DNA from: Prostheceraeus crozeri
Lineage: Eukaryota > Platyhelminthes > Polycladida > Euryleptidae
Direction: 5' to 3'
Length of the DNA stretch: 64,000 nucleotides
Assembly: GCA_907163375.1 (NCBI GenBank)
Contig: CAJQUW010005287.1
Span: 124,001-188,000, forward strand
The position numbers were made by a program, and so were the translations under genes. The first letter of the stretch is position 1, and the number at the start of each line of letters is the position of its first letter. Shown here in pieces: positions 9,912 to 42,171 of the stretch. The notes under the pieces are model-generated. The model made no database searches. It was given only the letters and a program-made list of their open reading frames with translations, and was not told where the DNA came from.

Positions 9912-9942
<31 letters not shown>

Positions 9943-19797: not shown

Positions 19798-19850
19798 AGT
19801 AGTAAGAAAACGGCGAACACCAGATAGCGCAAGATGGCCGCCATCGCTGA

Positions 19851-20060
19851 CGTCCCCCCCCTCTGGAACGGCAGAGTGTCGTGGTCGGCCGCCGTGGTGT
19901 TTCGGGTCTGAGTCCCCCCCCCTCTGGAACGACAGAGGTTGTAGTCTGTCGTGGTGTGCCGACCAGGTGGGTTCACAAACTGTTCGCTGACGTCCCCCCC
20001 CTCTGGAACGATAGAGTGTCGTGGTGGACTTGGGCGACCGCCAGGATTAGTCTTGAGGCT
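19851..20060. repeat. Three poly-C/CTCTGG hairpin units near the left end
   Basis: Three units have a C8-9 run followed by CTCTGGAACG and a matching CAGAG or ATAGAG: CTCTG-gaacgg-CAGAG, CCTCTG-gaacga-CAGAGG, and CTCT-ggaacgat-AGAG. The right arm holds the mirror copies at about 41,960-42,110. Poly-C lengths vary between copies. Confidence 0.7.
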
Positions 20061-20389
20061 ATAGTGTGTGATGTTTTTCGTGCAATCTGCTGAATTTTGG
20101 GTTGTAAAATGGGTTGTTTCGAGTGGAAGGAGTGGTCGGATAAGAAAACGGAGGTCGGATTCGTATTCAGCGTGAAATTCTGCATCGGTATGGTGAGTTT
20201 CAAGGCAATCGGTGAGAAAAAATTTTCAACATTTTTCGAAAAGCGACAGAGTTAGAATTTGGGACGTTTTGGTGTGTAGCGCCCAAACGAAGCATCGGAT
20301 GAGAAAACGGAGGTCAGATTGGGATTCAGCGTGAAATTCTGCATCGCTATGGTGAGTTTCAAGTCAATCGGAGAGAAAAAATTTTCGGC

Positions 20390-23300
20390 TGACGTCCCCC
20401 CCCCTCTGGACAGCTTGCTTCGATTTTGGCTTCCAGTGGACGGATTTTGTCGTGCGATAGCTCGTTTGAAAGCTAAGAGTGAGACAAATTCAGTGAAAGA
20501 ATCGGCTTGTTCCTATCTGTCTTCGTTCAAAAGTTAGAGCGGTTACAAGATTTTAGGTCGGAGCTCGCTCACCTGAAAAAATCCTAAGTGTCAAAGTGAC
20601 TTTGTATGGGTAAAATTTTGAAAATTTTCCAAAGTGTGGAATTTCGACCTGGGACCGTCACCAAAACATTTTTCATCAAATTTCACTGACCTCCCCCCCC
20701 CCGACAGCAATCTTCTAACTTTGGTTCTAGTGAACGGATTTTGTTCGTTCGAGTTGCATTCGAAAGAGGAGAAAAAGCTGCTCGACAACATTTTTTGTTG
20801 CGAGTCAATCGGAACAGCCGTTCAAAAGTTAGAGCGGTTACAAGATTTTAGGTCGGAGCTCGCTCACCTGAAAAAATCCTAAGTGTCAGAGTGACTTTGT
20901 ATGGGTAAAATTTTGAAAATTTTCCAAAGTGTGGAATTTCGACCTGGGACCGTCACCAAAATATTTTTCATCAAATTTCACTGACCTCCCCCCCCCTCTG
21001 GACAGCTTGCTTCGATTTTGGCTTCCAGTGGACGGATTTTGTCGTGCGATAGCTCGTTTGAAAGCTAAGAGTGAGACAAATTCAGTGAAAGAATCGGCTT
21101 GTTCCTATCTGTCTTCGTTCAAAAGTTAGAGCGGTTACAAGATTTTAGGTCGGAGCTCGCTCACCTGAAAAAATCCTAAGTGTCAAAGTGACTTTGTATG
21201 GGTAAAATTTTGAAAATTTTCCAAAGTGTGGAATTTCGACCTGGGACCGTCACCAAAACATTTTTCATCAAATTTTGAAATTTCACTGACGTCCCCCCCC
21301 CTCTGGACAGCTAGCTTCGATTTTGGCTTCCAGTGGACGGATTTTGTCGTGCGATAGCTCGTTTGAAAGCTTAGAGTGAGACAAATTCAGTGAAAGAATC
21401 GGCTTGTTCCTATCTGTCTTCGTTCAAAAGTTAGAGCGGTTACAAGATTTTAGGTCGGAGCTCGCTCACCTGAAAAAATCCTAAGTGTCAGAGTGACTTT
21501 GTATCGGTAAAATTTTGAAAATTTTCCAAAGTGTGGAATTTCGACCTGGGACCGTCACCAAAACATTTTTCATCAAATTTCACTGACCTCCCCCCCCCCC
21601 GACAGCAATCTTCTAACTTTGGTTCTAGTGAACGGATTTTGTTCGTTCGAGTTGCATTCGAAAGAGGAGAAAAAGCTGCTCGACAACATTTTTTGTTGCG
21701 AGTCAATCGGAACAGCCGTTCAAAAGTTAGAGCGGTTACAAGATTTTAGGTCGGAGCTCGCTCACCTGAAAAAATCCTAAGTGTCAGAGTGACTTTGTAT
21801 GGGTAAAATTTTGAAAATTTTCCAAAGTGTGGAATTTCGACCTGGGACCGTCACCAAAATATTTTTCATCAAATTTCACTGACCTCCCCCCCTCTGGACA
21901 GCTTGCTTCGATTTTGGCTTCCAGTGGACGGATTTTGTCGTGCGATAGCTCGTTTGAAAGCTAAGAGTGAGACAAATTCAGTGAAAGAATCGGCTTGTTC
22001 CTATCTGTCTTCGTTCAAAAGTTAGAGCGGTTACAAGATTTTAGGTCGGAGCTCGCTCACCTGAAAAAATCCTAAGTGTCAAAGTGACTTTGTATGGGTA
22101 AAATTTTGAAAATTTTCCAAAGTGTGGAATTTCGACCTGGGACCGTCACCAAAACATTTTTCATCAAATTTTGAAATTTCACTGACGTCCCCCCCCCTCT
22201 GGACAGCTTGCTTCGATTTTGGCTTCCAGTGGACGGATTTTGTCGTGCGATAGCTCGTTTGAAAGCTAAGAGTGAGACAAATTCAGTGAAAGAATCGGCT
22301 TGTTCCTATCTGTCTTCGTTCAAAAGTTAGAGCGGTTACAAGATTTTAGGTCGGAGCTCGCTCACCTGAAAAAATCCTAAGTGTCAAAGTGACTTTGTAT
22401 GGGTAAAATTTTGAAAATTTTCCAAAGTGTGGAATTTCGACCTGGGACCGTCACCAAAACATTTTTCATCAAATTTCACTGACCTCCCCCCCCCCCGACA
22501 GCAATCTTCTAACTTTGGTTCTAGTGAACGGATTTTGTTCGTTCGAGTTGCATTCGAAAGAGGAGAAAAAGCTGCTCGACAACATTTTTTGTTGCGAGTC
22601 AATCGGAACAGCCGTTCAAAAGTTAGAGCGGTTACAAGATTTTAGGTCGGAGCTCGCTCACCTGAAAAAATCCTAAGTGTCAGAGTGACTTTGTATGGGT
22701 AAAATTTTGAAAATTTTCCAAAGTGTGGAATTTCGACCTGGGACCGTCACCAAAATATTTTTCATCAAATTTCACTGACCTCCCCCCCCTCTGGACAGCT
22801 TGCTTCGATTTTGGCTTCCAGTGGACGGATTTTGTCGTGCGATAGCTCGTTTGAAAGCTAAGAGTGAGACAAATTCAGTGAAAGAATCGGCTTGTTCCTA
22901 TCTGTCTTCGTTCAAAAGTTAGAGCGGTTACAAGATTTTAGGTCGGAGCTCGCTCACCTGAAAAAATCCTAAGTGTCAAAGTGACTTTGTATGGGTAAAA
23001 TTTTGAAAATTTTCCAAAGTGTGGAATTTCGACCTGGGACCGTCACCAAAACATTTTTCATCAAATTTTGAAATTTCACTGACGTCCCCCCCCTCTGGAC
23101 AGCTTGCTTCGATTTTGGCTTCCAGTGGACGGATTTTGTCGTGCGATAGCTCGTTTGAAAGCTAAAAGTGAGACAAATTCAGTGAAAGAATCGGCTTGTT
23201 CCTATCTGTCTTCGTTCAAAAGTTAGAGCGGTTACAAGATTTTAGGTCGGAGCTCGCTCACCTGAAAAAATCCTAAGTGTCAAAGTGACTTTGTATGGGT

Positions 23301-23520
23301 AAAATTTTGAAAATTTTCCAAAGTGTGGAATTTCGACCTGGGACCGTCACCAAAACATTTTTCATCAAATTTTGAAATTTCACTGACGTCCCCCCCCCTC
23401 TGGACAGCTTGCTTCGATTTTGGCTTCCAGTTGACGGATTTTGTCGTGCGATAGCTCGTTTGAAAGCTAAGAGTGAGACAAATTCAGTGAAAGAATCGGC
23501 TTGTTCCTATCGGTCTTCGT
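20390..23520 (+). repeat. Tandem array of ~300-bp units with 3-unit higher-order period
   Basis: Poly-C anchors recur at about 20,393, 20,693, 20,990, 21,291, 21,588, 21,888, 22,190, 22,488, 22,786, 23,085 and 23,391, roughly every 300 bp. Two flavours alternate: one continues CTCTGGACAGCTTGCTTCG, the other CCGACAGCAATCTTC. The second flavour returns about every 897-900 bp, giving a three-unit higher-order repeat. The right arm has only about one such unit (41,250-41,560). Short reading frames inside repeat from unit to unit and look spurious. Confidence 0.85.
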
Positions 23521-24258
23521 TTAGATGTGAGACGCCATTTAAGATTTTGGGACATTGGCGAAAAACGACAGAGTTAGAATTTGGGACGTTTTGGGCTGTA
23601 GCTTCAAAACGAAGCATCGGATGGGAAAACGGATTTCAGATTTGGAATCAGCGTGAAATTCTCTATCTGTATGGTGAGTTTCAAGTCAATCGGAGAGAAA
23701 AAATTTTCAACATTTTTCGAAAAAACGACAGAGTTAGAATTTGGGACGTTTTGGTGTGTAGCGCCCAAACGAAGCATCGGATGAGAAAACGGAGGCCAGA
23801 TTCGGATTCGGCGTGAAATTCTGCATCGGTATAGTGAGTTTCAAGTCAATCGGAGAGAAAAAATTTTCGCTGACGCCCCCCCCCTCTGGACAGCTTGCAT
23901 CGATTTTGGCTTCCAGTGGACGGATTTTGTCGTGCGATAGCTCGTTTGAAAGCTAAGAGTGAGACACATTCAGTGAAAGAATCGGCTTGTTCCTATCTGT
24001 CTTCGCTTAGATGTGAGACGCCATTTAAGATTTTGGGACATTGGCGAAAAACGACAGTTAGAATTTTTGCGATGGCTGCCTACTGTAGAGCCAAAACGAA
24101 GCATCGGATGGGAAAACGGAGGCCAGATTCGGATTCAGCGTCAAATTCTACATGGAAATGGTGTATTTCCAGCTCAATCGGAGCACTAGAACCGGAGATA
24201 GACGGGTTTTTTAGTGTTTGGATGATGGGTATTACGTCATCAGCTGATCGCCACACAC
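23521..24258 (+). repeat. Diverged outer repeats before the TATA block
   Basis: Related segments around CAATCGGAGAGAAAAAATTTTC, CAAAACGAAGCATCGGATG and one more poly-C/CTCTGGACAGCTTGC unit (about 23,874). The mirror lies at about 40,390-41,250. No convincing gene. Confidence 0.6.
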
Positions 24259-24266
24259 TATATAAG
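24259..24266 (+). promoter_or_regulatory. TATA box (TATATAAG) at the start of the hairpin-rich block
   Basis: TATATAAG lies in a locally GC-richer setting and marks the shift from satellite to structured sequence. The mirror copy is CTTATATA at 40,385-40,392. No long ORF follows, so a transcript starting about 24,290 would be largely structured and noncoding. This is inference from sequence alone. Confidence 0.45.
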
Positions 24267-24289
24267 CTGGGAACCGAGAGAGACTTGTC

Positions 24290-25780
24290 ATTTAGAGGAG
24301 AACGATTGTCAGAGGTAGGTCGTCTCTCTGAGCTCCGATGATAGCTTCGGACATTCCAAATCCCGAGTTTCTGTAAGAAACCGACTTAGAAAATTTCATT
24401 GCTGATATCAGCTAAGGCGTCAGACTTAGAGGTTTGCCAGGAGATGGCCTTCGTCTCCAGGCCATAAAAGACTCCAAAACTTTAAAGGCTTGTAACTTTG
24501 CTTCTACAAGTCCGTTTGACTTGATTCAAAAAAGGTTCGGTCGCTATTGACCTGCCCTAAGTGATAGACTACTTATAAAGTTTCATAAGTAGTGCTAAAA
24601 AGTTGAAAAATTTAAATTCACTAGTTTTGGAGGTTTTCTGGGGTTTTCGACCCTGCTGAAGTCAATGAGAGCATTTTTAATGATGTCTGAGCCAGTCTTC
24701 TCATGCTATAAGCGGCTTTTCACTGAAAGCGAGCAAGACACGGAGAGTTTTGCTGTAATATTCCACTGACAGGGTGTTCCTTCGGGACGGCGGACGATGC
24801 CGTAGTGATAAGTGTGGCAAGGGAATGTGTCATATTTGAGACCGTAACCGCTGGGACAACTCATGTCTCATGTTGGGCATTTGACACAGCTCTCAACGTA
24901 GCACTTTGAACGCCAATCGGTTGAGTCTTAGCTATCTTGTCATGGGTGGCCTCTAAACATCTCCATTGCAAAACGCTGGTGAATCAAGCTCTCTACGGCT
25001 TGCTATCAAGCTGATCAAAGCAATAACTTGGGATGTTTCCTCAAGGTTTTCAAGTATGCTGAGTTCAAATCTGCTATCAGATTTCAAATTTAACTAAGAC
25101 TAAGGCAGCTTTGAGGGGTTAGATCCCAGCTACTGTTCACTACCTTTGACTCGGCGTTGCTGTTACCACTTCGGGGCAGTGACAATGATGTCTTCAGCTG
25201 TAAAGAGCGGGTATCGGGGAAGATCTCTCACTTCCCTAGTGATCAGTACAAGGCCTTCGGGCTGTCGACGGGATCGAGTGCCACTCACTACACTCAAATC
25301 TATCATTCCTCACTAAGTGTAAATTACTGACTATACATTTGTCCTGCTATCAGGTTGTTTTGACTTGCTATCTAGTTGAATAGTCTCTTGCTATCAAGAG
25401 ATTCACTTCTGCTCATAAAGCACATCATCGCTGTAATACCTCCTTTGCTCGAGCGTTCCTTCGGGACGGCGGGTACTGCCGTAGAGGGATTGCGTTGCAC
25501 GGGTTGTTCGTCGTTTGTTAGACCGAAACCTCTGAGCCGTTGCTCATGTTGGGCATTCGACTTCATACTCAACGTGACGTTTTCTCTCGCCAGGTCAGAG
25601 TACTTCAGCCATTCGACAAAGGTTAGTCTTTATGATATGGAGTAGAGTGAAATGTAATTCATTAGATGCCCCTTCAATGATTGCTCCCATGATAAACGTT
25701 GATGAGACAAATGAAATGATTCTCATCTTCCTTTTTCAGTGATTGAAATCTACTAACACACTACCGTATAATCGACCACT
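24290..25780 (+). ncRNA. Hairpin-dense block, candidate structured RNA
   Basis: No convincing protein. C(UUCG)G tetraloop hairpins occur at about 24,775-24,789, 25,252-25,263 and 25,454-25,468, with ACGGC/GCCGT at 25,466-25,482 directly after. CTAT-loop hairpins occur at 24,998-25,011, 25,067-25,084, 25,343-25,354 and 25,382-25,403. Two diverged ~170-nt modules share the order TGTAATA, GTTCCTTCGGGACGGCGG, TGCCGTAG, then CATGTTGGGCATT (from about 24,754 and 25,431); a third, weaker one starts at about 26,379. A TATA box precedes the block. UUCG loops are stabilising in RNA, so an RNA role fits. Mirror: about 38,880-40,360. Confidence 0.45.
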
Positions 25781-25887
25781 ATGGGGCAAGACATGATAGA
25801 GCCTCCACGCGCTTTGCCCTGGGCAGTCTTCGGACTGGCGAATACTATCATTAAGTTGAATCTGCTATCAGTCAACTTGAACGTTGC
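25781..25887 (+). repeat. 107-bp direct repeat, copy 1 (left arm)
   Basis: Starts ATGGGGCAAGACATGATAG and holds CAGTC-ttcg-GACTG (25,824-25,837) and a CTAT hairpin with 7-bp outer stem AAGTTGA/TCAACTT (25,853-25,878). Copy 2 at 26,257-26,363 differs at about two positions. Each encodes the same start of a short ORF (38 codons here, ending TAG 25,895-25,897). The METPN gene lies between the copies. Confidence 0.8.
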
Positions 25888-25902
25888 GTCGCATTAGAGG
25901 GG

Positions 25903-25910
25903 TATATAAA
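25903..25910 (+). promoter_or_regulatory. TATA box of the METPN gene (left arm)
   Basis: TATATAAA lies 32 nt before ATG 25,942, with a T/C-rich CATTTCATTTCATTTC leader between. The spacing suits a short 5' UTR polymerase II transcript. Mirror copy TTTATATA at 38,741-38,748. Confidence 0.6.
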
Positions 25911-25941
25911 CCACTGCCTCTCATTTCATTTCATTTCAATC

Positions 25942-26208
25942 ATGGAGACGCCGAACGCTGCAGTCAACTCTCCTCGCGGACCGCAGTTAAGACCGCGAAA
26001 TTTATTTAATGAATTTGCTAGAATAGAGGAGCAAGACAGAGTTTTTAATAATCTTGCTCGGATTGGCAATCCGATGACAGCAACTGCTGTCAATCCAACG
26101 GAATGGCGCTACATTCCACTTTTCAGCCATGTACCAGTTAGTGTGGAAGTCGACAGTGCTACCAAAGAGAGAGTCAAAGACTCTCTCAGTAGAATTGGTA
26201 GGGTGTAA
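25942..26208 (+). CDS. Unknown 88-aa protein (left arm)
   Basis: ATG follows a TATA box by 32 nt. The product starts METPNAAVNSPRGPQ, is rich in Arg, Asn and Pro, and has a mixed-charge middle (NEFARIEEQDRV). No family is recognised. After TAA (26,206-26,208) the same frame stays open for 66 more codons, through ATG 26,257 with a GCCACCATGG context, to TAA 26,407-26,409, so a readthrough product of about 154 residues is possible. Both arms carry the same stop. The opposite strand is also open (26,109-26,588), but the promoter favours this strand. Confidence 0.5.
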   Translation: METPNAAVNSPRGPQLRPRNLFNEFARIEEQDRVFNNLARIGNPMTATAVNPTEWRYIPLFSHVPVSVEVDSATKERVKDSLSRIGRV

Positions 26209-26256
26209 GATGACGTTACTCCCGAGAACGAACCACCGGCTCTCTTAAGGGCCACC

Positions 26257-26363
26257 ATGGGGCAAGACATGATAGAACCTCCACGCGGTTTGCCCTGGGC
26301 AGTCTTCGGACTGGCGAATACTATCATTAAGTTGAATCTGCTATCAGTCAACTTGAACGTTGC
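26257..26363 (+). repeat. 107-bp direct repeat, copy 2 (left arm)
   Basis: Second copy of 25,781-25,887, with the same UUCG hairpin (26,300-26,313) and CTAT hairpin (26,329-26,354). Mirror copies in the right arm are 38,288-38,394 and 38,764-38,870. Confidence 0.8.
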
Positions 26364-26409
26364 AAATGAAGTTCGGTGTAATACTTCCTTTCGACGGGCG
26401 TTCCTGTAA
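26257..26409 (+). CDS. 50-aa ORF in the second 107-bp repeat (left arm)
   Basis: ATG in GCCACCATGG opens 50 codons beginning MGQDMIEPPRG, ending TAA at 26,407-26,409. The first 107 nt repeat the segment at 25,781. It is in frame with the METPN ORF upstream, separated from it by one TAA and 16 codons. It could be the C-terminal part of a longer protein or just part of the hairpin repeat. No homologue recognised. Confidence 0.3.
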   Translation: MGQDMIEPPRGLPWAVFGLANTIIKLNLLSVNLNVANEVRCNTSFRRAFL

Positions 26410-26609
26410 AGGGCGGCGGTGAAACCCGTAGCTATGTATACCGCAAGGGACATTCGGCAATGGTCAATCTTGTTAAACCTCTCTGCGTCATGTTTGCAAG
26501 TGATTGCCTCTGTCTCAACGTAGTATGCATTCGCGCCAGGGCGACATTTAGCCAACTGTCGAAGGTTGCCTAAAACTATCCATTGCATACATTATGAGAA
26601 CCATGAGTT

Positions 26610-26807
26610 CTACCTGTCTCTATCAATGAGATGAATTGATGAATGGAATGAAATGGGAGGACACTCACGCGCCACACGCAACATAACACACTTCTCTCTT
26701 CCGTAGTCTAACAAGCTCTTTACACATGGATCGCAGTCGATTGCTATCCCTGTATCAGAAGTGTAAGCTATCTTAATTTTATTTAACACTATTTCATCTA
26801 CCATCAT
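26610..26807 (-). CDS. Unknown 65-aa ORF (left arm)
   Basis: Reads away from the axis. The product (MMVDEIVLNKIKIAYTSDTG...) has three Cys around DCDPCVKSLLDYGREKC and a basic end. The right-arm copy at 37,844-38,041 is open too, with a few amino-acid changes (D4Y, N8D, H59R). Both staying open gives weak support for coding. No family recognised. Confidence 0.35.
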   Translation of the reverse strand: MMVDEIVLNKIKIAYTSDTGIAIDCDPCVKSLLDYGREKCVMLRVARECPPISFHSSIHLIDRDR

Positions 26808-27018
26808 CAGCCATATGAAGTGTCATAAGATTTACAAGTTAGACTAAGCGTGCTACTATTTCCAAATGAAAAAGTATACATGGTTAAATCATCCACTGAA
26901 GCCCCATTCAAGTAAGTCAGTATGAAAGCAAAGATAATATGAAATAAAAATTTATTATGGCATGTATTTCAAAAGGTCTTCATCGTCAATATCGTCCCAG
27001 AGTCTGGCTTCACATAGA

Positions 27019-27168
27019 TTACAAAAAACAGTTCACTTGCTTCAATCGTTCTTCTACCGCGAGCCTCACTTTGTCGATATACTCCCACTCCGCTATAGTT
27101 CGTGACTGGGAGTTAGGGGTGTACCATTCCCATAATTGGTGGAGGAATTTGGTGCTGGCGATCTCCAT
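27019..27168 (-). CDS. Unknown 49-aa helical ORF (left arm)
   Basis: ATG at 27,166-27,168 on the - strand opens a Trp/Glu/Arg-rich product starting MEIASTKFLHQLWEW, with a helix-like charged second half (EWEYIDKVRLAVEERLKQV). An open frame exists on the other strand (26,957-27,190), but this composition looks more protein-like. The mirror copy at 37,483-37,632 is also open. Function unknown. Confidence 0.35.
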   Translation of the reverse strand: MEIASTKFLHQLWEWYTPNSQSRTIAEWEYIDKVRLAVEERLKQVNCFL

Positions 27169-27199
27169 CACTATTCGTGAGTGTCGTTAGAAAGTGTAT

Positions 27200-28300
27200 C
27201 ATGGTTTGTAAAAGTTTTACTGCAACACAGGTTGATGTATAGTTAGAAAAGTTTGATCATCAACGTTGTATTCGTAAGTCTAGTCAGAAACTTTATCATG
27301 TTGTACAAAAGTTTTATTGCAACACAGGTTGATGTATAGTTAGAAAGTTTGATCATCAACGTTTTATTTGTAAGTCTAGTCAGAAAGTGCATCATGGTTT
27401 GCAAAGTTAGTGTAGTCAAATAAATTTACTGTGACACCCGTTTGAGAAAGTAAAGTCTGATCATCGAAGTTGTATTCGTGAGTGTCGTTAGAAAGTGTAT
27501 CATTGTTTGTAAAAGTTTTACTGCAACACAGGTTGATGTATAGTTAGAAAAGTTTGATCATGACGTTTTATGAAACACACATGTCATGAAATGTAAGCGT
27601 TAGTGTAGTCAAATAATTTACCGCGACGCACGTTTGTGAAAATAAAGTTTGATCATTGACGTTATATGACTGACCGAACTCATCACAGCACTAGAAAGTT
27701 TTAGAAGGTTTTATTTACTGCACAGTGTAGATTGTCTTGTAACTTACTTTCACAGTGTTAGAAAGTTTTATTGGAGACAGTTGCCAAATGTTTCCCTATT
27801 AGAAATTCAAACTTCATGACTGTTAGATTAGCTTCATCAGGTTTAGTAAAAGCAGTTTTCTACTGCAGTAAGACTGCGAGTTTAGAATGTTATATGAAAA
27901 CAGTGTTCATCACAGCGCTAGAAAGTTTTACTGTGCTGTGTAGATTGTTTCACACAAGGTCTTATAGTCAGCGTTGAATGTTTTATAAAACCAGATGTTG
28001 TCACACACGTTGAGTGTATGAGAGCTAGTTCCATGACATTGAATCGCATGGATTGTAAAGTTCATAATCCAAGGCTAGGCTCCTGTACGGTTGGATTTAG
28101 GGTTTTATATTACATGCGTTAACCGTTCGTGTAGAATATGTGAAGCAGATGTTCGCTTAAATGCAAATGTTGAAATAAGTTTGTAAGAAATCTTTGACAG
28201 GTTGTTGTGAAACGTAGCGAACGTTGAAGAAATGTTTCTGCAGTCACACTCGTTAGCGTGCCAGCTTTACTAAATGTATTCTATTCTCCAATGAGGATTG
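27200..28300 (+). other. Imperfect repeats, no clear gene (left arm)
   Basis: Segments such as GTTAGAAAGTGTATCATGGTTTG, CAGGTTGATGTATAGTTAG and AAGTTTGATCATCAACGTT recur imperfectly up to about 27,700. Later sequence (27,750-28,300) is unique, with scattered TAGAAAGTTTTA words. The mirror lies at about 36,650-37,460. Confidence 0.5.
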
Positions 28301-28307
28301 TTGTCTA

Positions 28308-28595
28308 ATGAGAATCAAGTCTTCCACAGTGAGAATCATTCCATCGTTGAATCATACAAGTGATGGACGCACATTCTCTCTTTGGGATATCATTTTCAAA
28401 GTGAATGGGCTATATTATGGTCAGCACAAGGATAACAAAATAGCCTCTCTCTCGATATACACTGAATTCATCCTATATATTCCAAAGCCACCCAACGTAG
28501 ATGACATTATTGACTTCCTTAACGGGGGTGGTATGAAGCGCAAGTCGGAGAAGAATGCTACCTCCAAACGCAAGTCAAGGAAAGAGAATTGCTAA
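28308..28595 (+). CDS. Unknown 95-aa protein with basic tail (left arm)
   Basis: ATG 28,308 opens 95 codons. The first part alternates hydrophobic and polar residues as in a small beta-rich domain (TFSLWDIIFKVNGLYYG). Residues ~65-95 hold PPNVDDIIDFLNGGG and a Lys/Arg-rich end (KRKSEKNATSKRKSRK) that looks like a nuclear localisation or nucleic-acid binding tail. It overlaps the RING-like ORF by 41 nt in the +1 frame and has an open mirror copy at 36,357-36,644. No homologue recognised. Confidence 0.5.
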   Translation: MRIKSSTVRIIPSLNHTSDGRTFSLWDIIFKVNGLYYGQHKDNKIASLSIYTEFILYIPKPPNVDDIIDFLNGGGMKRKSEKNATSKRKSRKENC

Positions 28596-28755
28596 TCCTT
28601 TCCTAACTCTACCCTATGACAATTCGCTTATGTGCTTTGAGTGTCGTAGACGTGGTCTTATTAGATACATTTTACTTCTTCGTTGCCATCATATCATTTG
28701 CGTATTTTGTCGTGAAAAGCATCGATGTAATTCTTCATTTTGCAATATGTTATAG
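28555..28755 (+). CDS. RING-like zinc-binding small protein (left arm)
   Basis: A 66-residue frame with Cys/His spacing close to a RING finger: MCFEC (C-x2-C), then CHHIICVFC (C-x-H-x2-C-x2-C), then CNSSFC (C-x4-C instead of the usual C-x2-C). Small RING proteins are common in large DNA viruses as E3 ligases or structural factors. Here the match is by pattern only, and the odd last pair may mean a variant fold. It overlaps the basic-tail ORF and precedes the exonuclease-like gene by 52 nt. The right-arm copy at 36,197-36,397 is identical in translation. Confidence 0.5.
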   Translation: MLPPNASQGKRIANPFLTLPYDNSLMCFECRRRGLIRYILLLRCHHIICVFCREKHRCNSSFCNML

Positions 28756-28807
28756 AACGCTTCCTTAGATGTGTAAATTTCCGTTTTAGACTTCTATCAT
28801 CATTTTT

Positions 28808-29338: not shown

Positions 29339-29479
29339 TGCATGCTTGTTATAGTGATTCAATAAATGTTACTATGAGAAGAGTTGTTGTTTTCATGCAA
29401 TGAATGGGTTAGATAAAGGGCGATCATGTCTTTCTCAAACGACTGTGGAACATTGATTTCCATGATGAAGATTTAAACA

Positions 29480-32660: not shown

Positions 32661-35450
32661 TTGTAAACTGTTGAAAACTTAATTTTTTTTTCTAACATAT
32701 AAACAGCTAAAACTTTATTTCTAACGTACACACTGTTGAAACTTTATTTTTAACTTGTAAACGGCTGAAACTTTATTTCTAACACGATTCTATCATGTCA
32801 GGACTATACACATTTGATTTACAAAACATGCTTTGAATACTCATACGATGAAGTTCTTACTTTCATTTATTTCTAACGTACACACTGTTGAAACTTTATT
32901 TTTCAACTTGTAAACTGTTGAAACTTTATTTCAAACGTGCACACTGTTGAAACTTTATTTTTAACTTGTAAACGGCTGAAACTTTATTTCTAACGCACAA
33001 AGCGCCTAAACTTTATTTCCATCATACACACTATTGAAACTTTATTTTAATCTGTAAACTGTTGAAACGATATTTTCAATTACAACTAGTAGAATGCTGA
33101 GTCTAACTTGCAAACTAGTAAATCCTACGATCGTACTTTACAAACAGATAAAACTTTATTTCTAACGTAGACACTGTTGAAACTTTATTTTTAACTTGTA
33201 AACGGTTGAAACTTTATTTCTAACGTGCACACTATTGAAACTTTATTCTTAACTTGTAAACTGGCGAAGCTTCATTTTATTTCCAACATACAAACAGATA
33301 AAACTTTATTCTTAACATACGCACTATTGAAACATTAGTTTTAACTTGAAAACTATTGAAACTTTATTTTTAACTTGTTAACGGTTGAAACTTTGTTTTA
33401 TTTCTAACATACAAACAGATAAAACTTTATTATTAACTTGTAAACTGATGAACCTTCATTTTATTTCTAACATACAAACAGATAAAACTTTATTCTTAAC
33501 ATACACGCTATTGAAACTTTATTTCTAACGTACACACAATTGAAACTTTATTTTTTAACTTGTAAACTGGTGAAACTTTGTTTTAATTCTAACATACAAG
33601 CAGATAAAATTTATTCTTAACTTGTAAACTGGTGAACCTTCATTTTATTTCTAACATATAAGCAGATAGAACTTTATTCTTGACATACACACTATTGAAA
33701 CTTTATTTTTAACTTGTAAACGGCTGAAACTTTATTTCTAACGCGCAAAGCGCTTAAACTTTATTTCCATCATACACACTATTGAAACTTTATTTTAATC
33801 TGAAACTTTATTTTTGACTTGTTAACGGTTGAAACTTTGTTTTATTTCTAGCATACAAACAGATAAAATTTAATTCTTAACATACACACTATTGAAACTT
33901 TATTTCCAACGTACACACTATTGAAACTTTATTTTTTAACTTGTAAACTGGTGAAACTTTATTTCATTTCTGACATGCAAGCAGATAAAACTTTATTCTT
34001 AACTTGTAAACTGGTGAACCTTCATTTTTATTTCTAACATACAAACGGATAGAACTTTATTCTTAACATATACACTATTGAAACTTTATTTTTAACGTGT
34101 TAACTATTGAAACTTTATTTTTAACTTGTAAACGGTTGAAACTTTGTTTTAATTCTAACCTACAAATAGATAAAACTTTATTCTTAACATACACACTATT
34201 GAAACTTTATTCTTAACTTTTAAACTGGTGAAACTTTGTTTCATTTCTGACATACAAGCAGATAAAACTTTATTCTTAACTTGTAAACTGGTGAACCTTC
34301 ATTCTTATTTCTAACATATAAACAGATAGAACTTTATTCTTAACGTACACACTGTTGAAACTTTATTTTTAACTTGTAAACGGCTGAAACTTTATTTCTA
34401 ACGCACAAAGCGCTTAAACTTTATTTCCATCATATACACTATTGAAACTTTATTTTCATCTGAAACTTTATTTTTAACTTGTTAACGGTTGAAACTTTGT
34501 TTTATTTCTAACATACAAACAGATAAAACTTTATTCTTAACATACACGCTATTGAAACTTTATTTCTAACGTACACACTATTGAAACTTTATTTTTTAAC
34601 TTGTAAACTGGTGAAACTTTGTTTCATTTCTGACATACAAGCAGATAAAACTTTATTCTTAACTTGTAAACTGGTGAACCTTCATTCTTATTTCTAACAT
34701 ATAAACAGATAGAACTTTATTCTTAACGTACACACTGTTGAAACTTTATTTTTAACTTGTAAACGGCTGAAACTTTATTTCTAACGCACAAAGCGCTTAA
34801 ACTTTATTTCCATCATATACACTATTGAAACTTTATTTTCATCTGAAACTTTATTTTTAACTTGTTAACGGTTGAAACTTTGTTTTATTTCTAACATACA
34901 AGCAGATAAAATTTATTCTTAACTTGTAAACTGGCGAAACTTCATTTTATTTCTAACATATAAACAGACAGAACTTTATTCTTAACATACACACTATTGA
35001 AACTTTATTCTTAACTTTTAAACTGGTGAAACTTTATTTCATTTCTGACATACAAGCAGATAAAACTTTATTCTTAACTTGTAAACTAGTAAATCCTACA
35101 ATCTCATTTACAAAGAGATAAAACTTTATTTCTAACGTACATACTGTTGAAACTTTATTTTTAATCAACAAACTGTTGAAACTTTATTCTATTTCTAACA
35201 CACAAACAGCTTAAACTTTATTTTTAACATAAACACTATTGAAACTTTATTTTGTAATCTGTAAACTATTGAAACTATATCTTTCATTTACAAATAGTAG
35301 AACGCTTAGTCTAACTTGCAAACTAGTAAATCCTACAATCTCATTTTACAAACAGATAAAACTTTATTTCTAACGTACACACTGTTGAAACTATATCTTT
35401 CATTTACAAATAATAGAACGCTTAGTCTAACTTGCAAACTAATAAATCTT
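32640..35450 (-). repeat. AATAAA-rich tandem array, right inner arm
   Basis: Mirror of 29,480-32,400, seen here as TTTATT-containing units (GAAACTTTATTTCTAACG...). Unit order largely follows the left array, with local differences. Confidence 0.85.
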
Positions 35451-35610
35451 ATTTGTCATCGAATCTAACTGTTTAAAGCTTCATCATGGAAATCAATGTT
35501 CCACAGTCGTTTGAGAAAGACATGATCGCCCTTTATCTAACCCATTCATTGCATGAAAACAACAACTCTTCTCATAGTAACATTTATTGAATCACTATAA
35601 CAAGCATGCA

Positions 35611-36144
35611 TTATAAATCAATGGTTTGAAAGAGATAAAATAGATACAGCTGGTAACTATCATACAGCGAGCAATGATAACCATACAGGACTTTGGCAGT
35701 GTTGAGGTAAGGAGGAAAGAAGCATTGGTTATGAACGTAGCTACTACAACGAACAGACAAAATAGGAACACATAAATCCTTAAAACGTTTCGTGACTTCA
35801 TGATAATGTTGATTCACTCTACTATCCCAAGGCGGGAGCAAAATATCATCAATGATTAGATTGGGAAATACTTTCCTCTCCTTACCAGGATTATTACAAA
35901 AGATGCGTATAACATTGAAAGCAGCTAACCATCGTTTAAAGTCAATAAGAAGAGCACTCTCACAAGAAAAGCCATAGTCTTGCAAATATTTCAGATTAAG
36001 TCCATGAATGTGTTTTCTCGCCCATTGATCATCAACATTGGGATCACAGTTGGCATGTTGATGATAGACACTAACAATCTGATATGTCCAATTGTTCATA
36101 GCAATAGCACTGAGCTACTGTACAGGTTCACCCTCACAATCCAT
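35611..36144 (-). pseudogene. DEDDh exonuclease-like gene, right-arm copy
   Basis: Mirror of 28,808-29,338. It has the same TAG after nine codons and the same motifs, plus one extra Asp codon in PNVDDQWARK (PNVDQWARK on the left). A shared stop with a private 3-nt change means the lesion predates or was copied between the arms, while the arms have since drifted. Confidence 0.55.
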
Positions 36145-36196
36145 AAAAATGATGATAGAAGTCTAAAACGGAAATTTACACATCTAAGGAAGCGTT

Positions 36197-36397
36197 CTAT
36201 AACATATTGCAAAATGAAGAATTACATCGATGCTTTTCACGACAAAATACGCAAATGATATGATGGCAACGAAGAAGTAAAATGTATCTAATAAGACCAC
36301 GTCTACGACACTCAAAGCACATAAGCGAATTGTCATAGGGTAGAGTTAGGAAAGGATTAGCAATTCTCTTTCCTTGACTTGCGTTTGGAGGTAGCAT
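36197..36397 (-). CDS. RING-like zinc-binding small protein, right-arm copy
   Basis: Identical in translation to the left copy at 28,555-28,755, with the same Cys/His pattern (C-x2-C, C-x-H-x2-C-x2-C, C-x4-C). Confidence 0.5.
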   Translation of the reverse strand: MLPPNASQGKRIANPFLTLPYDNSLMCFECRRRGLIRYILLLRCHHIICVFCREKHRCNSSFCNML

Positions 36398-36644
36398 TCT
36401 TCTCCGACTTGCGCTTCATACCACCCCCGTTAAGGAAGTCAATAATGTCATCTACGTTGGGTGGCTTTGGAATATATAGGATGAATTCAGTGTATATCGA
36501 GAGAGAGGCTATTTTGTTATCCTTGTGCTGACCATAATATAGCCCATTCACTTTGAAAATGATATCCCAAAGAGAGAATGTGCGTCCATCACTTGTATGA
36601 TTCAACGATGGAATGATTCTCACTGTGGAAGACTTGATTCTCAT
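36357..36644 (-). CDS. 95-aa protein with basic tail, right-arm copy
   Basis: Identical in translation to 28,308-28,595 and overlapping the RING-like ORF by 41 nt in the same way. Confidence 0.5.
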   Translation of the reverse strand: MRIKSSTVRIIPSLNHTSDGRTFSLWDIIFKVNGLYYGQHKDNKIASLSIYTEFILYIPKPPNVDDIIDFLNGGGMKRKSEKNATSKRKSRKENC

Positions 36645-37482
36645 TAGACAACAATCCTCATTGGAGAATAGAATACATTTAGTAAAGCTGGCACGCTAAC
36701 GAGTGTGACTGCAGAAACATTTCTTCAACGTTCGCTACGTTTCACAACAACCTGTCAAAGATTTCTTACAAACTTATTTCAACATTTGCATTTAAGCGAA
36801 CATCTGCTTCACATATTCTACACGAACGGTTAACGCATGTAATATAAAACCCTAAATCCAACCGTACAGGAGCCTAGCCTTGGATTATGAACTTTACAAT
36901 CCATGCGATTCAATGTCATGGAACTAGCTCTCATACACTCAACGTGTGTGACAACATCTGGTTTTATAAAACATTCAACGCTGACTATAAGACCTTGTGT
37001 GAAACAATCTACACAGCACAGTAAAACTTTCTAGCGCTGTGATGAACACTGTTTTCATATAACATTCTAAACTCGCAGTCTTACTGCAGTAGAAAACTGC
37101 TTTTACTAAACCTGATGAAGCTAATCTAACAGTCATGAAGTTTGAATTTCTAATAGGGAAACATTTGGCAACTGTCTCCAATAAAACTTTCTAACACTGT
37201 GAAAGTAAGTTACAAGACAATCTACACTGTGCAGTAAATAAAACCTTCTAAAACTTTCTAGTGCTGTGATGAGTTCGGTCAGTCATATAACGTCAATGAT
37301 CAAACTTTATTTTCACAAACGTGCGTCGCGGTAAATTATTTGACTACACTAACGCTTACATTTCATGACATGTGTGTTTCATAAAACGTCATGATCAAAC
37401 TTTTCTAACTATACATCAACCTGTGTTGCAGTAAAACTTTTACAATCAATGATACACTTTCTAACGACACTCACGAATAGTG

Positions 37483-37632
37483 ATGGAGATCGCCAGCACC
37501 AAATTCCTCCACCAATTATGGGAATGGTACACCCCTAACTCCCAGTCACGAACTATAGCGGAGTGGGAGTATATCGACAAAGTGAGGCTCGCGGTAGAAG
37601 AACGATTGAAGCAAGTGAACTGTTTTTTGTAA
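37483..37632 (+). CDS. 49-aa helical ORF, right-arm copy
   Basis: Mirror of 27,019-27,168, open from ATG to TAA, with the Trp/Glu/Arg-rich composition. Confidence 0.35.
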   Translation: MEIASTKFLHQLWEWYTPNSQSRTIAEWEYIDKVRLAVEERLKQVNCFL

Positions 37633-37843
37633 TCTATGTGAAGCCAGACTCTGGGACGATATTGACGATGAAGACCTTTTGAAATACATGCCATAATAAA
37701 TTTTTATTTCATATTATCTTTGCTTTCATACTGACTTACTTGAATGGGGCTTCAGTGGATGATTTAACCATGTATACTTTTTCATTTGGAAATAGTAGCA
37801 CGCTTAGTCTAACTTGTAAATCTTATGACACTTCATATGGCTG

Positions 37844-38041
37844 ATGATGGTATATGAAATAGTGTTAGATAAAATTAAGATAGCTTACACTTCTGATACA
37901 GGGATAGCAATCGACTGCGATCCATGTGTAAAGAGCTTGTTAGACTACGGAAGAGAGAAGTGTGTTATGTTGCGTGTGGCGCGTGAGTGTCCTCCCATTT
38001 CATTCCATTCATCAATTCGTCTCATTGATAGAGACAGGTAG
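37844..38041 (+). CDS. 65-aa ORF, right-arm copy
   Basis: Mirror of 26,610-26,807 with a few substitutions (MMVYEIVLDK against MMVDEIVLNK), still open. Reads away from the axis. Confidence 0.35.
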   Translation: MMVYEIVLDKIKIAYTSDTGIAIDCDPCVKSLLDYGREKCVMLRVARECPPISFHSSIRLIDRDR

Positions 38042-38287
38042 AACTCATGGTTCTCATAACGTATGCAATGGATAGTTTTAGGCAACCTTCGACAGTTGGC
38101 TAAATGTCGCCCTGGCGCGAATGCATACTACGTTGAGACAGAGGCAATCACTTGCAAACATGACGCAGAGAGGTTTAACAAGATTGACCATTGCCGAATG
38201 TCCCTTGCGGTATACATAGCTACGGGTTTCACCGCCGCCCTTTACAGGAACGCCCGTCGAAAGGAAGTATTACACCGAACTTCATTT

Positions 38288-38394
38288 GCAACGTTCAAGT
38301 TGACTGATAGCAGATTCAACTTAATGATAGTATTCGCCAGTCCGAAGACTGCCCAGGGCAAACCGCGTGGAGGTTCTATCATGTCTTGCCCCAT
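38288..38394 (-). repeat. 107-bp direct repeat, copy 2 (right arm)
   Basis: Mirror of 26,257-26,363, with the UUCG and CTAT hairpins. Confidence 0.8.
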
Positions 38395-38442
38395 GGTGGC
38401 CCTTAAGAGAGCCGGTGGTTCGTTCTCGGGAGTAACGTCATC

Positions 38443-38709
38443 TTACACCCTACCAATTCTACTGAGAGAGTCTTTGACTCTCTCTTTGGTAGCACTGTCG
38501 ACTTCCACACTAACTGGTACATGGCTGAAAAGTGGAATGTAGCGCCATTCCGTTGGATTGACAGCAGTTGCTGTCATCGGATTGCCAATCCGAGCAAGAT
38601 TATTAAAAACTCTGTCTTGCTCCTCTATTCTAGCAAATTCATTAAATAAATTTCGCGGTCTTAACTGCGGTCCGCGAGGAGAGTTGACTGCAGCGTTCGG
38701 CGTCTCCAT
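38443..38709 (-). CDS. Unknown 88-aa protein, right-arm copy
   Basis: Identical in translation to 25,942-26,208. The TATA box (38,741-38,748) lies upstream at the same distance, and the same TAA is followed by an open frame into the 107-bp repeat. Confidence 0.5.
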   Translation of the reverse strand: METPNAAVNSPRGPQLRPRNLFNEFARIEEQDRVFNNLARIGNPMTATAVNPTEWRYIPLFSHVPVSVEVDSATKERVKDSLSRIGRV

Positions 38710-38740
38710 GATTGAAATGAAATGAAATGAGAGGCAGTGG

Positions 38741-38748
38741 TTTATATA
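38741..38748 (-). promoter_or_regulatory. TATA box of the 88-aa gene, right arm
   Basis: TTTATATA on the + strand, mirror of 25,903-25,910. Confidence 0.55.
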
Positions 38749-38763
38749 CCCCTCTAATGCGAC

Positions 38764-38870
38764 GCAACGTTCAAGTTGACTGATAGCAGATTCAACTTAA
38801 TGATAGTATTCGCCAGTCCGAAGACTGCCCAGGGCAAAGCGCGTGGAGGCTCTATCATGTCTTGCCCCAT
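38764..38870 (-). repeat. 107-bp direct repeat, copy 1 (right arm)
   Basis: Mirror of 25,781-25,887. Confidence 0.8.
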
Positions 38871-38879
38871 AGTGGTCGA

Positions 38880-40360
38880 TTATACGGTAGTGTGTTAGTA
38901 GATTTCAATCACTGAAAAAGGAAGATGAGAATCATTTCATTTGTCTCATCAACGTTTATCATGGGAGCAATCATTGAAGGGGCATCTAATGAATTACATT
39001 TCACTCTACTCCATATCATAAAGACTAACCTTTGTCGAATGGCTGAAGTACTCTGACCTGGCGAGAGAAAACGTCACGTTGAGTATGAAGTCGAATGCCC
39101 AACATGAGCAACGGCTCAGAGGTTTCGGTCTAACAAACGACGAACAACCCGTGCAACGCAATCCCTCTACGGCAGTACCCGCCGTCCCGAAGGAACGCTC
39201 GAGCAAAGGAGGTATTACAGCGATGATGTGCTTTATGAGCAGAAGTGAATCTCTTGATAGCAAGAGACTATTCAACTAGATAGCAAGTCAAAACAACCTG
39301 ATAGCAGGACAAATGTATAGTCAGTAATTTACACTTAGTGAGGAATGATAGATTTGAGTGTAGTGAGTGGCACTCGATCCCGTCGACAGCCCGAAGGCCT
39401 TGTACTGATCACTAGGGAAGTGAGAGATCTTCCCCGATACCCGCTCTTTACAGCTGAAGACATCATTGTCACTGCCCCGAAGTGGTAACAGCAACGCCGA
39501 GTCAAAGGTAGTGAACAGTAGCTGGGATCTAACCCCTCAAAGCTGCCTTAGTCTTAGTTAAATTTGAAATCTGATAGCAGATTTGAACTCAGCATACTTG
39601 AAAACCTTGAGGAAACATCCCAAGTTATTGCTTTGATCAGCTTGATAGCAAGCCGTAGAGAGCTTGATTCACCAGCGTTTTGCAATGGAGATGTTTAGAG
39701 GCCACCCATGACAAGATAGCTAAGACTCAACCGATTGGCGTTCAAAGTGCTACGTTGAGAGCTGTGTCAAATGCCCAACATGAGACATGAGTTGTCCCAG
39801 CGGTTACGGTCTCAAATATGACACATTCCCTTGCCACACTTATCACTACGGCATCGTCCGCCGTCCCGAAGGAACACCCTGTCAGTGGAATATTACAGCA
39901 AAACTCTCCGTGTCTTGCTCGCTTTCAGTGAAAAGCCGCTTATAGCATGAGAAGACTGGCTCAGACATCATTAAAAATGCTCTCATTGACTTCAGCAGGG
40001 TCGAAAACCCCAGAATACCTCCAAAACTAGTGAATTTAAATTTTTCAACTTTTTAGCACTACTTATGAAACTTTATAAGTAGTCTATCACTTAGGGCAGG
40101 TCAATAGCGACCGAACCTTTTTTGAATCAAGTCAAACGGACTTGTAGAAGCAAAGTTACAAGCCTTTAAAGTTTTGGAGTCTTTTATGGCCTGGAGACGA
40201 AGGCCATCTCCTGGCAAACCTCTAAGTCTGACGCCTTAGCTGATATCAGCAATGAAATTTTCTAAGTCGGTTTCTTACAGAAACTCGGGATTTGGAATGT
40301 CCGAAGCTATCATCGGAGCTCAGAGAGACGACCTACCTCTGACAATCGTTCTCCTCTAAA
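38880..40360 (-). ncRNA. Hairpin-dense block, right-arm copy
   Basis: Mirror of 24,290-25,780, with the CTAT-loop hairpins (seen here as ATAG loops), the UUCG hairpins and the two ~170-nt modules. A mirrored TATA box lies at 40,385-40,392. Confidence 0.45.
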
Positions 40361-40384
40361 TGACAAGTCTCTCTCGGTTCCCAG

Positions 40385-40392
40385 CTTATATA
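40385..40392 (-). promoter_or_regulatory. TATA box of the hairpin block, right arm
   Basis: CTTATATA, mirror of 24,259-24,266. Confidence 0.4.
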
Positions 40393-42165
40393 GTGTGTGG
40401 CGATCAGCTGATGACGTAATACCCATCATCCAAACACTAAAAAACCCGTCTATCTCCGGTTCTAGTGCTCCGATTGAGCTGGAAATACACCATTTCCATG
40501 TAGAATTTGACGCTGAATCCGAATCTGGCCTCCGTTTTCCCATCCGATGCTTCGTTTTGGCTCTACAGTAGGCAGCCATCGCAAAAATTCTAACTGTCGT
40601 TTTTCGCCAATGTCCCAAAATCTTAAATGGCGTCTCACATCTAAGCGAAGACAGATAGGAACAAGCCGATTCTTTCACTGAATGTGTCTCACTCTTAGCT
40701 TTCAAACGAGCTATCGCACGACAAAATCCGTCCACTGGAAGCCAAAATCGAAGCAAGCTGTCCAGAGGGGGGGGGACGTCAGCGAAAATTTTTTCTCTCC
40801 GATTGACTTGAAACTCACCATACCGATGCAGAATTTCACGCTGAATCCGAATCTGGCCTCCGTTTTCTCATCCGATGCTTAGTTTGGGCGCTACACACCA
40901 AAACGTCCCAAATTCTAACTCTGTCGTTTTTTCGAAAAATGTTGAAAATTTTTTCTCTCCGATTGACTTGAAACTCACCATACAGATAGAGAATTTCACG
41001 CTGATTCCAAATCTGAAATCCGTTTTCCCATCCGATGCTTCGTTTTGAAGCTACAGCCCAAAACGTCCCAAATTCTAACTCTTGTCATTTTTCGCCAATG
41101 TCCCAAAATCTTAAATGGCGTCTCACATCTAAACGAAGACAGATAGGAACAAGCCGATTCTTTCACTGAATTTGTCTCACTCTTAGCTTTCAAACGAGCT
41201 ATCGCACGACAAAATCCGTCCACTGGAAGCCAAAATCGAAGCAAGCTGTCCAGAGGGGGGGACGTCAGTGAAATTTCAAAATTTGATGAAAAATGTTTTG
41301 GTGACGGTCCCAGGTCGAAATTCCACACTTTGGAAAATTTTCAAAATTTTACCCATACAAAGTCACTCTGACACTTAGGATTTTTTCAGGTGAGCGAGCT
41401 CCGACCTAAAATCTTGTAACCGCTCTAACTTTTGAACGAAGACAGATAGGAACAAGCCGATTCTTTCACTGAATTTGTCTCACTCTTAGCTTTCAAACGA
41501 GCTATCGCACGACAAAATCCGTCCACTGGAAGCCAAAATCGAAGCAAGCTGTCCAGAGGGGGGGGGGACGTCAGCCGAAAATTTTTTCTCTCCGATTGAC
41601 TTGAAACTCACCATAGCGATGCAGAATTTCACGCTGAATCCGAATCTGACCTCCGTTTTCTCATCCGATGCTTCGTTTTGACGCTACACACCAAAACGTC
41701 CCAAATTCTAACTCTGTCGCTTTTCGAAAAATGTTGAAAATTTTTTCTCACCGATTGCCTTGAAACTCACCATACCGATGCAGAATTTCACGCTGAATAC
41801 GAATCCGACCTCCGTTTTCTCATCCGACCACTCCTTCCACTCGAAACAACCCATTTTACAACCCAACATTCAGCAGATTGCACGAAAAACATCACACACT
41901 ATAGCCTCAAGACTAATCCTGGCGGTCGCCCAAGTTCACCACGACACTCTATCGTTTCAGAGGGGGGGGGGACGTCAGCGAACAGTTTGTGAACCCACCT
42001 GGTCGGCACACCACGACAGACTACAACCTCTGTCGTTCCAGAGGGGGGGGACTCAGACCCGAAACACCACGGCGGCCGACCACGACACTCTGCCGTTCCA
42101 GAGGGGGGGACGTCAGCGATGGCGGCCATCTTGCGCTATCTGGTGTTCGCCGTTTTCTTACTACT
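40393..42165 (-). repeat. Outer poly-C repeats, right arm
   Basis: G-run anchors (poly-C on the - strand) occur near 40,767, 41,257, 41,557, 41,962, 42,042 and 42,102, mirroring the left outer region but with the 300-bp array cut down to about one unit. Right terminus CTTACTACT at 42,157-42,165. Confidence 0.8.
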
Positions 42166-42171
42166 TATGAG
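42166..42171. other. Right 6-bp target duplication of the palindromic element (TATGAG)
   Basis: Matches 19,792-19,797 exactly. Confidence 0.9.

Follow-up and report, generated by a model that had tools for sequence, protein, structure and literature searches.

The 64,000-nucleotide stretch of the Prostheceraeus crozeri genome analysed here (the window) contains a long segment, termed PAL1, whose halves mirror each other inside another mobile element, raising the question of what kind of element it is and how it became palindromic. The boundaries given by a sequence-only reading proved exact to the base, with AGTAGTAAG running from 19798 and CTTACTACT up to 42165, and TATGAG was found on both sides as a target-site duplication (TSD). 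The left flank has 36 matches in the 2.05-Gb host genome; one is the window, and the other 35 all end at base 19797. All six of these 35 Ty3/Gypsy retrotransposon copies that were read onward carry the empty site, a single TATGAG followed by the right flank of the window (in copy L072 with a 3-base shift after 40 bases). These results confirm the proposed true insertion with mirror arms: the region 19798-42165 is one insertion into a Ty3/Gypsy retrotransposon and is palindromic over its length. The same reading held that removal of the element restores a pol frame. The junction phase is 0 for both flanking reading frames, by arithmetic alone with the sequences not joined, but the pol concerned, with RVT_1, RNase H, H2C2 and rve domains, is that of the retrotransposon and not a Polinton polymerase.

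Table 1. Features of PAL1 and its insertion site (positions in the window)
Feature	Position	Strand	Length (bases)
Ty3/Gypsy gag-protease side, broken by PAL1	18483..19797	+	
TSD TATGAG, left copy	19792..19797	+	
PAL1, palindromic Polinton-derived element	19798..42165	.	
Left end motif (AGT)2	19798..19803	+	
Left arm	19798..32519	+	12722
305-bp tandem array, 10.5 units, in left terminal region (much shorter in right arm)	20389..23521	+	
Segment common with left part of C7, 95% (arm 6426-7390)	26223..27187	+	
Segment common with right part of C7, 95.6%, inward orientation (arm 8585-9657)	28382..29454	+	
Open frame of 166 codons, derived from a Polinton gene whose function is unknown	28838..29338	+	
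A+T-rich arrays of inner left arm, 29-bp unit and multiples	29508..32420	+	
Palindrome centre, perfect, without loop	32467..32572	.	53 + 53
Right arm, shorter mirror of the left	32520..42165	-	9646
A+T-rich arrays, mirror copy	32685..35448	-	
Same open frame, mirror copy, starting from the same residue	35611..36114	-	
Right end motif (ACT)2	42160..42165	+	
TSD TATGAG, right copy	42166..42171	+	
Ty3/Gypsy reverse transcriptase, RNase H and integrase side	42172..44684	+	

The symmetry axis of PAL1 falls between 32519 and 32520; the match is perfect for 53 bases on either side, and the terminal inverted repeats reach all the way to the centre. The sequence to the right of this axis seems poorly called. 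The start of the 166-codon frame is cut by an in-frame stop, and in the ordinary copies compared it is open further upstream (182 codons in copy C33). In agreement with the earlier statement that no recognised enzyme lies inside, none of the five internal frames tested contained an accepted Pfam domain, and no gene for PolB, an RVE integrase or a double-jelly-roll capsid protein was found in PAL1.

The ends and the 6-bp TSD had been read as the signature of a Polinton-type integrase, and this was borne out by the Polinton/Maverick (polintovirus) copies of the same genome. Ends of the type (AGT)2//(ACT)2 or (AG)3//(CT)3 with a perfect 6-bp TSD are Maverick features, the motif pair being given for vertebrate Mavericks in the available part of PMC8097293. 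Four ordinary copies (C7, C33, C65 and C382) have the ends of PAL1 and a 6-bp TSD, and full copies encode PolB, an RVE integrase with a chromodomain, and a double-jelly-roll capsid protein. A single frame of C7 matches both rve (E 1.8e-9) and Chromo (8.8e-7). The polymerase region is 58-63% identical to proteins bearing PF03175, and Pfam reported no polymerase in the 1284-aa frame. The capsid structure model P0001 (pLDDT 84.6) covers 99% of the C7 protein at 100% identity, and as a predicted fold it matches the capsid proteins of PBCV-1, iridovirus, Sputnik and mavirus. When solved structures were searched by sequence, the capsid alignment retrieved none but two chance-level DARPins and the polymerase frame mainly zinc fingers; in viral_contigs no relatives of the capsid protein were confirmed. 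The family is very common in the genome, its capsid marker having 5445 matches there.

Of the 12.7-kb left arm of PAL1, 7.8 kb is common with these ordinary Polintons, and about 5 kb has no match in the four copies read. The arm is a chimera of left and right terminal regions, and at E 1e-30 it contains no match longer than 150 bases to the 8.5-kb middle of C7 (L012). Since the PolB, integrase and capsid genes are all missing, PAL1 is a non-autonomous Polinton/Maverick derivative and not a Polinton proper; unlike the gene-bearing copies, it is a palindrome over its full length. The total size of PAL1 resembles that of full Polinton copies, although size was one of the criteria by which the sample was selected. 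The sequence-only reading had suggested that an integrase was borrowed from the surrounding provirus family. A Polinton integrase does fit best, but the DNA of the surrounding provirus matches none of the four ordinary copies at E 1e-3 and, to judge from this comparison, is a lineage other than the donor family.

The spread of PAL1 was assessed with markers from its end, centre and arm. The 18-base end occurs 1095 times in forward and 1086 times in reverse orientation and is not a chance match, because the reversed-letter control gave 0. The inner 24 bases of the centre were found at 435 places with at most one mismatch (control 0), and at the six centres read the symmetric half-lengths were 53, 64, 206 and 379 bases and, at two of the centres, at least 400, with no loop. 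The arm marker has 354 matches (184 + 170); among the 100 listed, 84 form 42 neighbouring pairs, all inward-facing, with no same-strand or outward pairs and 16 singles. The existence of another copy flanked by a 6-bp duplication of its own had been set beforehand as a test, and all six further copies whose two ends were read are flanked in this way: AAGGTA, CTGGTT, CTTTTG, GGAGAT, CATTGA and TTTCAG, each perfect and different from the others and from that of the window. Near its own axis, copy C83 bears the final 164 bases or so of the window arm; it was considered as an independent palindrome, rejected on this account, and grouped with PAL1.

The two arms of PAL1 are 98.4-100% identical over the aligned positions of each 500-column block, falling to 93.7% in the block adjoining the axis. 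Several blocks contain few or no aligned positions, and the arms differ in length (12722 versus 9646 bases), because the 305-bp array is much longer on the left. Differences between copies outside the arrays are mostly common to both arms of a copy, while the arrays often differ between arms. Among 13 substitution columns in an arm test of three copies, 9 were common to both arms of one copy, 3 were in one arm only and 1 was complex; none was shared arm-wise between copies. In C472, the left and right arms differ at 4/1550 and 5/1846 positions (plain distance), and its right arm differs from the left arm of the window at 3 and 4, about as many as between its own arms. All 31 one-mismatch centres listed (of 416) share one A/C asymmetry, located 12 bases from the axis, so correction between arms is incomplete. 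Near the axis, the arrays are unequal in length between arms in four of six copies (gap columns: window 252, C7510 1100, C91 580, C12411 578). Pieces taken at a fixed distance from four further PAL1 centres landed in A+T-rich arrays, because the arrays are longer at these copies, and are unusable for an arm test of unique sequence; left and right differed at 0/1299 positions in C8968, 6/1011 in C12411, 66/1236 in C8775 and 230/1135 in C91, the values for C8775 and C91 being due at least in part to arrays out of register.

In a second palindrome, PAL2, a left-side Polinton region that includes the polymerase frame is present on both sides of a mirror axis. At its turn, ordinary Polinton sequence extends as far as position 1948 of L012 and then goes back from 1879, giving a 10-bp stem (9/10 paired) and a 59-nt loop. 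Copy C388 of PAL2 has a TSD, and its two arms are 99.94% identical across 4925 bases. Both further copies fetched show the same junction, and so does C388, which in addition skips about 175 bases further on. At no more than two mismatches, the genome holds 6 PAL2 junctions versus 5288 ordinary ones. By eye, C388 is the only close convergent pair among the 100 PolB markers listed (of 2453), and events of the PAL2 type are therefore rare. The PAL2 junction looks like a frozen record of the extrachromosomal copying of such elements. C184, with convergent capsid markers 10.4 kb apart, was tried as a third palindrome and rejected; its 2-kb middle is plain Polinton without an inverted self-match.

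We consider it probable that PAL1 is a defective, palindromic (snap-back) Polinton/Maverick genome that arose from protein-primed, strand-displacing replication and was integrated and amplified in trans. An ordinary Polinton would have been copied as free linear DNA, as its PolB and what is known of the family suggest. A growing or displaced strand would then fold on a short inverted repeat and copy itself to its own end, and one more round would turn the resulting hairpin into a palindrome whose two ends are the same; the PAL2 junction displays such a turn, and PAL1 may have arisen likewise. The family integrase could insert the product, because two proper ends are kept, and would leave the 6-bp duplication observed. 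PAL1 would subsequently be copied and inserted in trans, as it must be if every recognised gene is lost and yet the centre lies at 435 places; from the missing genes and the copy number we infer dependence on a helper. The pattern in the three copies suggests that, when single strands fold, one arm can be corrected against the other, so that the non-arrayed parts stay alike. A tentative extension, which we think doubtful, is that PAL1 is a true satellite without genes, replicated by the Polinton polymerase, packaged in Polinton capsids and inserted by the Polinton integrase, that spreads by parasitising a virus-like transposon; its mirror arms might also give rise to long double-stranded RNA that silences this helper. 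The founding event of PAL1 is not directly readable, because its centre is perfect and without a loop. A centre of this kind would equally result from the fusion of two molecules at their ends.

Such a fusion, in which host repair joined two linear sister molecules or broken halves head to head before the dimer was integrated and amplified, is an unlikely competitor. It accounts for the perfectly symmetric, loopless centre at the six places read, but the PAL2 turn has the stem and 59-nt loop that self-priming predicts. Inverted duplication in the chromosome after an ordinary Polinton had integrated is refuted for the window copy and C388: such duplications happen in genomes generally, but here the entire palindrome is enclosed by two proper ends and one TSD and is therefore older than integration.

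The new class of foldback element that the sequence-only reading had also entertained, a DNA transposon with its own transposase and Polinton-like ends by convergence only, is close to refuted. A palindrome over the whole length with no recognisable enzyme would suit it, but full Polintons have exactly this 18-base end, the shared arm blocks are about 95% identical, the TSD length is equal, and the shared 7.8 kb of the left arm tells against a class apart. Foldback/Galileo-type transposons leave TSDs of 7-9 bp, against 6 bp in the 7/7 copies read here, and the enzyme differs. They resemble PAL1 in their long inverted repeats, which also contain repeats internally (PMC3573991, in part). A sequencing, amplification or assembly artefact that mirrored one arm is equally improbable. 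Strand-displacement amplification does yield long palindromes (part of PMC9484634), and the seemingly poor calling right of the axis fits this account, but the flanks of PAL1 are not mirrored, TSDs differ in all seven copies read at both ends, an empty site exists, and the same centre is present at 435 places.

The snap-back reading of PAL1 has parallels outside the Polintons. Adenoviruses, with protein-primed linear DNA, form palindromic or end-duplicated defective genomes, and fold-back of such DNA would yield the structure seen here; to our knowledge these are known from culture and not as germline families. One genome end twice around a mirror axis, the mark of a snap-back defective genome, is present in PAL2, and so is the turn at a short inverted repeat with a loop, whereas the PAL1 centre is loopless. 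Snapback genomes of adeno-associated virus, found in defective particles, are self-complementary, contain one moiety and are symmetric or asymmetric, and template switching has been proposed for its nonunit-length genomes (PMC8235507, in the portion available). That virus is of another kind with another replication, and the palindromes described here are integrated and amplified to hundreds of places. The strand-displacing T7 replisome switches template at a short inverted repeat to give a long hairpin (PMC9484634, in part). The PAL2 junction has the form of these products (and, by analogy, of phi29 products), though theirs is in vitro chemistry and this is an inherited element. Among the papers listed in a literature search, none described palindromic or snap-back Polintons.

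The replication mode of Polintons is largely inferred from gene content. Maverick particles have not been observed so far, according to the accessible part of PMC8097293, although capsid genes are present. Palindromes that are bounded by proper ends and a TSD and contain a fold-back junction look like molecular fossils of free linear DNA copied via single strands. They indicate that defective, probably helper-dependent genomes can grow into a large inherited family, here at several hundred places, and they make the Polinton life cycle testable using existing long reads.

The genome analysed comprises 2.05 Gb in 14165 contigs, of which C4395 (bases 124001-188000) supplies the window. The palindromic element lies in a Ty3/Gypsy-type retrotransposon, which is itself nested in an old Polinton-like provirus with matches to double-jelly-roll, rve and PolB. 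The ends, 6-bp duplication and mirror symmetry proved to be as first described from the sequence alone. That reading had also claimed a true insertion and proposed a search for empty sites and for the flanking 6-mers of further copies, and all three points were confirmed. Besides the window itself, the left flank has 35 matches in Gypsy copies, and all of them end exactly at the element boundary; the six of these that were read onward carry a single TATGAG followed by the window's right flank, which in one site (L072) agrees for 40 bases before a 3-base shift. Six copies read at both ends showed six perfect, mutually different 6-bp duplications. Because the window arms differ at only 5 of about 3400 bases (two regions compared), the insertion is young by the yardstick of common animal mutation rates.

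Features of the window and of related sequences (window coordinates unless another sequence is named)
Feature	Position	Strand	Remark
Ty3/Gypsy protease side	18483-19589		
Ty3/Gypsy reverse transcriptase to integrase side	up to 44684		
Palindromic element	19798-42165		axis between 32519 and 32520
Stretch just right of axis	32573-32790		likely base-call errors; counterpart perfectly symmetric in some other copies
Mirrored provirus around the Gypsy element	C4395:113817-178619		L010/L009 plus window 1-54619; pieces 85-97% identical
Provirus mirror, piece in L009	54434-44997		matches L009, inverted
Provirus mirror, piece within window	8-2424 and 18034-14807		inverted match
T/G array	2873-12122	+	9250 bases, solely T and G; mid-mirror of older provirus
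Mariner/Mos1-type transposase frame (Transposase_1)	15377-16516	-	in one arm of older provirus
Inverted repeat	61335-63579		1.04 kb, 99.7% identical, spacer 161 bases; each arm has a frame resembling, by eye, a Penelope-like retroelement end (RT + GIY-YIG)
Harbinger-type transposase gene apparently holding palindrome C83	L019 468-1088; L020 8966-9892		by eye
Turning points of second palindrome family	L012 1870-1879 and 1939-1948		10-bp stem, 9 bases paired, 59 bases enclosed

The window arms are 98.4-100% identical per block at aligned positions, with 93.7% in the block that adjoins the axis. Because a 305-bp tandem array is much longer in the left arm, several blocks contain few aligned positions or none at all. 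Long homopolymers right of the axis suggest poor base calls there. Nanopore base calling is described as degrading at inverted duplicates in one report (PMC7229812); the window's sequencing platform may be another.

The 18-base end of the element occurs 2181 times genome-wide (control 0). The ordinary copy C7 has ends identical to those of the window element, plus a duplication, with open frames between them. One frame carries rve and a chromodomain, and another carries an endonuclease VII domain; a longer counterpart of the latter is present in the palindrome C388, and its downstream part is 58-63% identical to PF03175-carrying proteins. A 428-codon frame is predicted to encode a double-jelly-roll capsid protein, as modelled on its near-identical relative P0001, whose model matches PBCV-1, iridovirus, Sputnik and mavirus. 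A packaging ATPase is probable from weak matches only (Pox_A32, E 0.026; phage ATPase, E 0.0072). The (AGT)2//(ACT)2 end motif with a 6-bp duplication is the pair given for vertebrate Mavericks in the account of PMC8097293. Capsid and PolB markers gave 5445 and 2453 genome matches, respectively (≤1 mismatch; control 0 for each). If most capsid matches come from ~22-kb copies, the family would make up ~6% of the genome; 5445 capsid matches are, to our knowledge, an unusually large expansion for one Polinton family. P0001 is a metagenomic protein, 100% identical across 99% of the C7 capsid protein, with a longest contig of 12.9 kb. The capsid relative P0015 and the polymerase relative P0124 both give a longest contig of 21290 bases, which is perhaps one near-complete element outside the P. 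crozeri genome.

The ordinary copies C7, C33, C65 and C382 jointly match 7766 of 12722 bases of the window left arm, tandem repeats included. The matched blocks correspond to the two terminal regions, left and right, of ordinary copies, the unique blocks being oriented inward. At E 1e-30 the 8.5-kb middle of C7 had no match longer than 150 bases in the window arm. The earlier statement that no recognisable enzyme lies inside the element held: five internal frames yielded no accepted Pfam match (one zf-RING_5, E 0.36). One gene fragment is left over, and in each arm its start follows the same in-frame stop. The element is a non-autonomous derivative of a Polinton/Maverick family, and not a Polinton proper since it is without the defining genes. 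Four of the 17 copies with both ends examined (the window, six copies, and ten sampled by two 2.5-kb pieces each) are palindromes, namely the window, C83, C388 and C472; the other 13 show the ordinary order of genes, either as such or reversed, judged for nine from two pieces only. The palindromes measure 17.7-22.8 kb and the ordinary copies 19.2-25.3 kb, a likeness that is only suggestive because the ten copies were picked by pair length (20.9-25.3 kb, from 26 pairs of 11.5-39 kb).

The surrounding provirus is itself a mirror. Its unpaired middle contains the T/G array together with a frame for an rve integrase and what, by eye, may be a protease frame. The ends of this provirus were sought and not found, and it had no DNA match at E 1e-3 to four ordinary donor-family copies. 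A second, older Polinton lineage may also have made palindromes.

In a second palindrome family, PAL2 (C9688, C10555 and C388), the sequence follows an ordinary copy up to one point and then reverses along itself at a short stem within L012, the 8.5-kb middle of C7; in C388 some 175 further bases next to the turn are skipped. This junction occurs six times in the genome, against 5288 occurrences of the uninterrupted sequence. The C388 arms are 99.94% identical over 4925 bases, and C388 is bounded by a proper end on either side and by a duplication; the turn is therefore older than integration. Hairpins at short inverted repeats are described as made in vitro by strand-displacing polymerases (PMC9484634), and snapback genomes as produced by AAV (PMC8235507).

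The window family, PAL1, multiplies in palindromic form. Its 24-base centre was found at 435 places (19 exact, 416 with one mismatch) and its arm marker gave 354 matches, counts that may take in both haplotypes of one locus; the marker is absent from 16 comparison stretches, C83 and C388 among them. Among 100 marker matches listed, 42 inward-facing pairs (a median of 8.0 kb apart, with a single pair at 28 kb), none in another orientation, and 16 single matches were found, four of the latter ≤3.5 kb from a contig start. Perfect symmetry at six centres read extends 53 (window), 64, 206, 379 and twice at least 400 bases per side. Copy C5, fetched in part, has a PAL1 centre between its two ends.

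The two arms of a copy remain similar, though not completely. Across 955 columns of three PAL1 copies, 13 carry substitutions: nine are common to both arms of one copy, three are single-arm and one is complex, and no substitution recurs in corresponding arms of different copies. In a comparison of two regions totalling 3404 columns, the first of which overlaps those 955, the window and C472 differ by symmetric changes (5 substitutions, 5 gap columns) and single-arm changes (14 substitutions, 3 gap columns), with no arm-wise change. Beside the centre, the left and right arms of C8968 are identical over 1500 bases and those of C8775 differ at 1 of 1500, and the two copies are 6-7 bases and 372 gap columns apart in both arms. 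These patterns point to arm correction via folded single strands that would be frequent and incomplete and would work poorly within arrays and close to the hairpin tip. Three observations speak against perfect correction: array length is unequal between arms at the other four centres, the C472 arms differ about as much from each other as one of them does from the window, and the same asymmetry stands 12 bases from the axis in all 31 one-mismatch centres among those listed.

The window element behaves like a snap-back defective genome, one that probably depends on a helper. Polinton DNA would replicate in a free, protein-primed form, in which a founding event could have created the PAL1 palindrome; PAL1 may be packaged, and an integrase acting in trans would insert it.
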